Below, in pieces: positions 47,270-48,407 of a stretch of 64,000 bases of DNA (positions within the stretch are counted from its first letter, which is position 1; every line of letters starts with the position of its first letter). Origin of the DNA: Clostridia bacterium (GTDB lineage Bacteria > Bacillota > Clostridia > Oscillospirales > CAG-272). The notes under the pieces were generated by a model. The model was not told the origin of the DNA. It searched no databases and worked only from the letters and a program-made list of their open reading frames with translations. A program made the translations under genes and the position numbers. Location: NCBI GenBank assembly GCA_017446155.1, contig JAFSRI010000003.1, positions 1 through 64,000 of the forward strand. Reading direction: 5' to 3'.

Positions 47270-47297
47270 AAAAAGCTCCCCACACGGGGAGCTTTTT
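47270..47297 (+). terminator. Terminator of nifJ
   Basis: AAAAAGCTCCCC (47270-47281) pairs with GGGGAGCTTTTT (47286-47297). Confidence 0.92.
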
Positions 47298-47397
47298 GCG
47301 TGTAATTTCAATGGAAGTTGAACAGGCTTATTTTAAATATTTAGACTTGGAAATAGATTTTTTTGAGTTTTTGCTTGGCTATATTTATAAATAAAAA

Positions 47398-47711
47398 TCC
47401 GAGAGCAATAAATACTCTCAGATATATTTGTGTATGGTAAAGTTTCTTTTTGTTATTTATTTAAACAACAAAAAATCCGAGAGCGGTAAATACTCTCGGA
47501 TAAATTTGTATGGGGTAAAGCTTCTTTTTGTTGATTTATTTAATCAACAAAAAATCCGAGAGCAATAAATACTCTCGGATAAATTTGTATGGGGTAAAGT
47601 TTCTTTTGGTTGTTTATTTAAACAACAAAAAATCCGAGAGCGGTAAATACTCTCGGATATATTTGTATATGGTAAAGTTTCTTTTGGTTACTTTTCTTTA
47701 CAAAGAAAAGT
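47398..47711. repeat. Four tandem 78-79 bp repeats, each with two hairpins
   Basis: Units begin at 47398, 47476, 47555 and 47633. Hairpin A is TCCGAGAG with CTCTCGGA; its loop is CAATAAATA in units 1 and 3 and CGGTAAATA in units 2 and 4. Hairpin B is GTTG-xTT with AAx-CAAC. It changes in a compensating way between units 2 (A-T) and 3 (T-A) and is wholly replaced in unit 4 by a 12-bp stem (GTTACTTTTCTT with AAGAAAAGTAAC). The array sits in the convergent gap between nifJ and rplA. The last stem directly follows the rplA stop. Confidence 0.88.
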
Positions 47712-47714
47712 AAC

Positions 47715-48407
47715 TCAGCCGAGTTTGGCAGCGTTAACTTTAACGCCGGGGCCCATGGTAGAAGCAACTACGCAACTCTTGATATACTGACCTTTAGCGG
47801 CAGCGGGTTTCGCCTTGATGACAGCGCCCATAAGCGTGTTGAAGTTGTCGATGAGTTTTTCTTCGCCGAAGGAAGCCTTGCCAATGGGGCAGTGAATGAT
47901 GTTTGTTTTGTCAAGACGGTATTCAATCTTACCTGCCTTAGCTTCTGTAACAGCCTTTGCAACGTCGGGAGTAACCGTGCCTGCTTTGGGGTTCGGCATA
48001 AGTCCCTTAGGACCAAGGACTTTACCGAGACGACCGATAACGCCCATCATGTCAGGGGTAGCGATAACTACGTCGAAATCGAACCAGTTTTCTTTCTGGA
48101 TCTTTTCAACATACTCTGCGCCGCCTGCATAATCTGCGCCTGCGTCGAGGGCTGTCTGAACTTTATCTTCTTTGCAGAAAACAAGAGTACGGATCGTTTT
48201 ACCTGTTCCGTGCGGAAGAACTACCGCACCGCGAACCTGCTGATCTGCGTGACGGCTGTCAACGCCGAGACGAATGTGAAGTTCGATTGTTTCATCGAAT
48301 TTTGCTTTTGATGTTTGAAGAACGAGAGCGACTGCTTCGTTTGCATCATAAAGTTTTGCGCGTTCAACGAGTTTCGCGCTGTCTGTATATTTCTTACCTT
48401 TGCTCAT
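47715..48407 (-). CDS. rplA: 50S ribosomal protein L1
   Basis: A 230-aa ribosomal protein of the L1 stalk, which in many bacteria also represses its own operon. [14 protein letters not shown] at the N-terminus, the [16 protein letters not shown] block (about 130-145) and [15 protein letters not shown] are diagnostic. It is the last gene of the rpmG-secE-nusG-rplK-rplA run. The rplJ-rplL genes that often follow are not present here. Confidence 0.97.

Follow-up and report, generated by a model that had tools for sequence, protein, structure and literature searches.

Why is a short segment of DNA repeated four times in a row between two convergent genes, and what does the array owe to its surroundings? 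Within the 64,000 nucleotides of a Clostridia genome analyzed here (the window), the array occupies positions 47393-47714, between nifJ on the plus strand (PFOR, pyruvate:ferredoxin oxidoreductase) and rplA on the minus strand (ribosomal protein L1). A sequence-only reading had described four tandem two-hairpin units whose stems vary in a paired fashion, and had proposed that selection on structure shaped them, possibly for insulating transcription or protecting mRNA 3' ends. The tandem array itself was borne out by TRF and by a table of the units, and its place between convergent nifJ and L1 genes by the gene assignments. What became of the remaining claims, and what lies at the end of the array, is described below.

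The array and the rplA 3' end

TRF reported a repeat at 47393-47689 with periods of 78 and 157 bp. Three units are delimited by TRF and the unit table, i.e., unit 1 (47393-47470, 78 bp, the most distant from rplA), unit 2 (47471-47549, 79 bp) and unit 3 (47550-47627, 78 bp), and a fourth by the sequence and the unit table (47628-47714, 87 bp), which ends in an intact triplex-type hairpin. Units 1 and 3 are identical at 71 of 78 positions and units 2 and 3 at 73 of 79. The loops of hairpin A do alternate between two versions (CAA, CGG, CAA, and CGG in units 1-4), and the 157-bp period scores above the 78-bp one, both as reported or expected for growth by copying of a two-unit block; the GGGGTAAAG spacer, on the other hand, groups units 2 and 3, and growth of the array was therefore mosaic, with no single clean two-unit block.

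Each of the four stretches folded gives two hairpins (z-scores of -6.5 to -7.5, with none of 200 shuffles equally stable), and stems are conserved in every unit, as had been claimed. Hairpin A lies at 47397-47423 in unit 1 (with its T-tract and one U.G wobble on the minus strand), 47475-47501 in unit 2, 47554-47580 in unit 3 and 47632-47658 in unit 4, nearest to rplA. Nine of its 11 pairs are invariant, one reads C-G except in a single unit, where it is U-G (minus strand), and the loop-closing A-T is paired in two units only. Hairpin B is found at 47452-47469 in unit 1 (GTTATTTATTTAAACAAC, with one A.C mismatch on the plus strand that equals G.U on the minus strand), at 47530-47548 in unit 2, where the loop is one base longer, and at 47609-47626 in unit 3. 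At its position 5, units 1 and 3 have T-A and unit 2 has A-T, a genuine swapped pair, and to that extent the paired changes seen by the sequence-only reading are real. In a count of 15 aligned stem pairs across the array units, none had both partners changed, nor did an excess over column shuffles appear, a test of low power because there are four copies only. Compensatory change within the array is thin, and a single swapped pair does not support selection for structure as the force that shaped it. What had been read as a "fully different 12-bp stem" in unit 4 is no substituted stem but part of another, dispersed element, which has a 13-bp stem and is present in many genomes.

Hairpin A with its T-tract, i.e., a G+C-containing stem followed by Ts, is intrinsic-terminator-like in all four units and on the minus strand only (terminator scan; four sites versus 0.6 expected from shuffles). 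These predicted terminators would act on the rplA operon rather than on nifJ, which possesses a terminator-like hairpin of its own outside the array (47274-47297, plus strand; AGCTCCCC/GGGGAGCT followed by TTTT, G+C-rich with a short T-run, read by eye and unflagged by the terminator scan). Judged by its sequence, the site operates at a 3' end; a two-sided insulator is unsupported. Read on the rplA strand, the TGA stop codon (47715-47717, minus) is followed by the hairpin GTTACTTTTCTTTgtAAAGAAAAGTAAC, the tail CAAAAGAAACTTTACC, a spacer, and the terminator-like hairpin ATCCGAGAG..CTCTCGGAT-TTTTTTG, and beyond unit 4 come three further units, each made of a small palindrome, a slightly altered CAAAAGAAACTTTACC tail, a spacer, and a terminator.

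None of ten relatives has the element in its orthologous rplA 3' region, where most carry an ordinary terminator; one of the same genus (G003), with an L1 protein 88% identical, has a plain terminator 3' of rplA. The earlier proposal had been held open to refutation by strains with variable or absent arrays and no effect on transcript ends, and the absent arrays, one half of this, are what all ten relatives present at rplA. The element and the array therefore look recent in the window genome.

A mirror-symmetric hairpin and its third segment

The core of the dispersed element reads, on the plus strand, TTTCTTTT-GGTTA-CTTTTCTTT-AC-AAAGAAAAG-TAAC, at the rplA-proximal end of unit 4. Its Watson-Crick hairpin (GTTACTTTTCTTT AC AAAGAAAAGTAAC, 13 bp, 47687-47714) immediately abuts the rplA stop codon. 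The TTTCTTTT block (47678-47685, plus strand; AAAAGAAA on the minus strand) mirrors the purine arm AAAGAAAA and is the proposed third (Hoogsteen) strand, on the basis of mirror covariation across genomes. The block fits the purine arm in parallel Hoogsteen register (U.A-U, C.G-C), and tail and purine arm are therefore mirror images on the other strand. Given that neither Watson-Crick pairing nor direct duplication would make such a mirror, the symmetry points to a triplex, and a purine arm that mirrors its adjoining tail is, as far as sequence can tell, the signature of an intrastrand triple helix. Intrastrand triplex motifs (ITxF) are defined by Holder et al. 2015 (PMC4666352) as three stems of 6-15 nt with loops of 1-6 nt and triads of one class, and the window element, read by eye, has stems of 8 and loops GGTTAC and a short one around AC, within this structural rule. 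The mirror match is lost in array units 1-3 (stems GTTGTTTA and similar), which we count against the triplex explanation and which means that a triplex explains nothing about their present action. Below-threshold matches from an Rfam scan of the window were judged to be chance.

Covariation was examined in 80 regions chosen by hand from the matches listed, with unusual variants deliberately included. The hairpin pattern required purines on both sides of GTDABC (GTAABC in the search of 291 genomes of the class, below) and did not require equal run lengths. It yielded 184 distinct short-loop hairpins, of which 92 with a purine tail were kept, the others being largely the same hairpins on the other strand. 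The A-runs of arm and tail were equal in 86 of these 92 (24 genomes; 3/3 in 32, 4/4 in 49, and 5/5 in 5), with two unequal and four unparsed; among the fully parsed hairpins (23 genomes), n=m held in 83 of 84 and the second run was exactly equal in 67 of 84. A mirror and a direct repeat predict differing tails in 62 of the 84 rows (23 genomes), and every one of them followed the mirror and none the direct repeat, which rules out a direct-repeat (branch-switch) origin of the tail and shows a third segment that mirrors the purine arm beyond chance, as an ITxF should. Versions with three and four As stand side by side in 10 of 24 genomes, and the length change is therefore no single ancient lineage split. 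That arm and third segment co-vary in length, also within single genomes, is direct comparative evidence of constraint on the third segment.

GC-rich and selenomonad copies have a further pairing, between the loop beside the purine arm and bases past the tail (GGGC/GCCC, GCAG/CTGC, CGCGT/ACGCG, and others), i.e., a pseudoknot helix. Tested in a fixed register at first, it was found in 36% versus 2.8%, with 35 distinct helices. For loops of 5-20 nt, a helix of at least 4 bp is present in 57% of 113 unique elements versus 9.8% with shuffled partners (maximum 18.5%, 300 shuffles); for loops of up to 4 nt, the figures are 5% of 21 and 9.5%, which we count against our best explanation. The genome counts in the pseudoknot and wobble tests (71 and 83) are upper bounds, each 22-mer locus being counted as its own genome. 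The window copy is unable to form this helix because its loop has 2 nt. One selenomonad genome (G378, loci L204-L223) has at least 88 pattern matches among those listed, and in most of the 20 copies fetched from it two more hairpins follow, with ATCC-type loops (GGAT on the other strand) and stems that differ yet stay paired (by eye).

Spread of the element and the question of strand

At least 120 stretches in the collection of genomes contain the exact 22-mer AAAGAAAAGTAACCAAAAGAAA, and the pyrimidine arm accompanies it in 106 of the 120 listed. Carriers named in the 80 titles among the matches listed belong to Pseudomonadota, Bacteroidota, Bacillota, Lentisphaerae, Nitrospirae, and Desulfobacterales/Desulfobulbus groups, and Fusobacteriota join them through a plasmid record (Ilyobacter), in which the hairpin is present and the third segment matches partly. 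Judged by these sequence matches, the core is found in about seven distantly related bacterial phyla. Closer to the window, the motif occurs in four of 59 genomes (its own included), with 48 copies in G003 and none in the three other relatives of the same genus. A broader pattern run on 291 genomes of the class gave true hairpin elements (by eye) in the window genome and one other (G117) only, so that the element is rare in the class. Searched with an Aggregatibacter-type element, the complete E. coli genomes (20,395 records) gave no match, and neither did phage records with the window query. A viral origin was considered and rejected: the 22-mer is present in 17 viral stretches and the pyrimidine arm in just one of them, most viral matches being therefore chance or other sequence. 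A mobile gene beside the element was likewise rejected, as the largest cluster shared among 556 ORFs near the 120 loci listed (all-against-all comparison) covers five loci, none transposase-like (by eye); gene calls for this and for the stop-codon tests were plain long ORFs.

Placement at gene ends is frequent. On the purine strand, 13 of 63 hairpins start 0-4 nt past the stop codon of a same-strand gene, and Pasteurella dapF has the same placement (ca. 5 nt); none of 70 downstream opposite genes ends within 20 nt of the tail. This adjacency sits on the purine strand and speaks against an alternative in which the conserved object is a transcribed RNA pseudoknot of the pyrimidine strand with a U.A-U/C.G-C major-groove triple helix, serving as 3'-end protection or as a protein-binding module, and the DNA repeats are its gene copies. 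The joint covariation of third segment, arms, and pseudoknot helix is in its favor, and so is the third stem pair: in 34 of 135 elements the purine strand has C opposite A here, which amounts to G.U on the pyrimidine strand, and no element has the reverse. However, this bias hangs on one position, as other stem mismatches, S1 neighbours, and pseudoknot borders have no clear strand preference, and the wobbles of hairpins A and B in the window favor the opposite strand. Three Rfam families adjoin the pyrimidine strand of the element, i.e., TwoAYGGAY (RF01731) in Psychromonas, Bp1_684 (RF02421) in Burkholderia and AaHKsRNA22 (RF02902) in Aggregatibacter, and RNAs of this neighborhood are described in Weinberg et al. 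2010 (PMC2864571) and in PMC3521395, where Bp1_Cand684 figures among the RT-PCR tested sRNA candidates of Burkholderia. Yet the matches cover neighbouring hairpins, none of the three spans the triple-helix part, and none lies in the window. Taken together, we regard the RNA reading as less likely than not.

The three Rfam matches (L103:571-780 for TwoAYGGAY, L096:958-1102 for Bp1_684, and L090:4471-4604 for AaHKsRNA22) each terminate at the triplex element or close to it, and these models may stop short of an adjoining triple-helix module. TwoAYGGAY (gathering score 43) has no match in the window and, among 16 loci scanned, lies next to the element in L103 only; as an identity for the array it was discarded, since a search run without a positive control gave no matches in the window's own genome or 59 relatives.

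How arrays may arise, and what the element resembles

The sequence-only reading had called for a search of the genome for further copies. The 78-bp unit has no second copy (BLAST); the unit-4 hairpin with its tail is present at other genes (contigs C31, C53, and C54), each time with a different tandem unit (about 100, 55, 54, and 102 bp), and the C31 array also repeats a T-tailed hairpin. Tail-side arrays recur in unrelated genomes (68 bp in L046, 71 bp in L239, 85 bp in L274, and 55 bp in L232), and small arrays of the pyrimidine arm, 12-18 bp, are found on the other side in L019, L031, L097, L148, L227, and L243. With breakpoints read by eye from the TRF output, the duplicated unit comprises the tail, in some cases together with the purine arm, or else the pyrimidine arm, and the full hairpin stays single. 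Because the full hairpin stays single while its flanks are duplicated, we infer slippage by a polymerase stalled at the hairpin or triplex. Arrays are common in the window genome and a few others; most copies elsewhere, e.g., in Xanthomonadales, have none, and this counts against the explanation.

Several arrays have peculiarities of their own. In genome G350, the 85-bp tandem unit of L274 has two different triplex-type hairpins (A4 and A3) nested in one array. In the window genome, the copy with the 102-bp array (L013; C53:38345-38411 and 38400 onward) sits immediately upstream of a probable RNase P RNA gene, and its tail points away from that gene. Loci L015 and L031 of G003 contain other repeats, of the CCTTCCCCAGTAGGGGAAGG..GACGGATGAGG type, between the tail copies, as if arrays collect repeats; repeats of this type are widespread in gut bacteria.

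We consider it probable that the array grew by slippage beside a triplex-type repeat and that the predicted terminator of rplA was quadrupled in the process. The starting point would be one copy of the dispersed A/T-rich intrastrand-triplex element right after the rplA stop, with its arms CTTTTCTTT/AAAGAAAAG and mirror third segment. Strand separation in replication or transcription could let one strand fold back twice into a triple helix, which in other genomes, where the loop has at least 5 nt, might be further locked by the pseudoknot helix. Replication would stall at the triplex and the new strand slip back, duplicating neighbouring DNA from the hairpin or tail outward and not the whole hairpin. 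Repeated slippage could thus have built the 78-bp array and taken the intrinsic terminator of rplA with it, so that four terminators now stand in series on the minus strand. The sequence itself shows the array with its terminator-like sites, the covarying mirror and the pseudoknot pairing, the element's spread among phyla and frequent position past stop codons, and arrays that recur with other units. What we infer is triplex formation in the cell, an origin of the array by slippage there, and extra terminators that are for the most part redundant.

The same four minus-strand sites, with stems conserved in all four units, could also mean that selection multiplied terminators, i.e., a functional terminator or insulator array that stops the highly expressed rplA operon and keeps it from running antisense into nifJ. 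The T-tailed hairpin repeated in the C31 array would fit. But the ten relatives do without an array, most of them with a plain terminator after rplA, the C53 and C54 arrays have no clear terminator (by eye), the tail and hairpin B were copied along needlessly, and nifJ is left unserved, which makes this origin rather improbable. Far less probable still is a REP-type element mobilized by a RAYT (Y1 transposase) and present in BIME-like tandem copies: although hairpins past stop codons, high copy number, and patchy spread recall REPs, neither the window genome (G000) nor G003 with its 48 motif copies has a candidate for the transposase (PF01797), relatives lacking the motif carry PF01797, and no protein family is enriched beside the 120 loci listed. 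Type III toxin-antitoxin RNA arrays are tandem pseudoknot repeats followed by a toxin gene; this identity was ruled out, as the flanking genes encode PFOR and ribosomal protein L1.

Slippage beside the triplex-type repeat remains our preferred account of the array. A wider reading, which we offer tentatively and with more doubt than conviction, is that a triple-helix pseudoknot resembling the telomerase RNA core has been maintained, through three-way covariation, across about seven phyla as a dispersed RNA or single-stranded DNA module at gene ends where polymerase stalling begets arrays that multiply terminators. With its phylum spread, its placement past stop codons, and its adjoining arrays, the element offers a clear test of whether tandem repeats and duplicated terminators can originate from non-B structures. 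It is the repeat itself, rather than the array, that we regard as the finding.

Among known systems, the element shares with REP/BIME sequences the palindromes just past stop codons and the many copies, but it has a mirror third segment in place of the GTAG/CGTC tags of REPs (PMC3733652), and its carriers G000 and G003 are without a RAYT. On the pyrimidine strand it would be an H-type pseudoknot with a pyrimidine loop along a Y:R stem in the major groove, like SAM-V and the telomerase RNA pseudoknot; in contrast to these, it is a dispersed DNA repeat with a predicted fold, and the copy in the window leaves no space for a pseudoknot helix.

Bacterial intrastrand triplexes have so far been known mainly through one G/C-rich motif without an assigned function, TM_ECO, which Holder et al. 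2015 (PMC4666352) equate with the PIT elements of Hoyne and Maher. That paper gives its consensus as CCCTCNCCC..GGGNGAGGG..GGGNGAGGG, reports it from 262 proteobacterial genomes, associates TM/PIT repeats with local genome instability or variability, and cites earlier work in which TM_ECO had no promoter or terminator activity; a stable TM triplex was not seen in vivo by DMS footprinting, which we count against our best explanation. Its focus is on G/C-rich motifs because A/T-rich ones were more frequent in scrambled genomes, and the string TTTTCTTT is absent from its main text. Open-access papers were searched for the element's sequence and for triple-helix repeats in bacteria, and none was found to describe the element. 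Like TM_ECO/PIT and other ITxF, the element places a pyrimidine arm, a purine arm, and a mirror purine tail next to each other, is intergenic, and varies patchily in copy number between relatives; an association with local instability, as in TM/PIT repeats, may exist, to judge by the tandem arrays beside several copies. Unlike TM_ECO, it is A/T-rich, which excludes it from the TM_ECO (E. coli PIT) subfamily with its G/C-rich consensus, it reaches about seven phyla, its segments co-vary in length, it often has an extra pseudoknot helix, and it can adjoin large tandem arrays. Judged from sequence, the closest published kind is thus the bacterial intrastrand-triplex repeats, of which the A/T-rich, often pseudoknotted, cross-phylum form described here is new.
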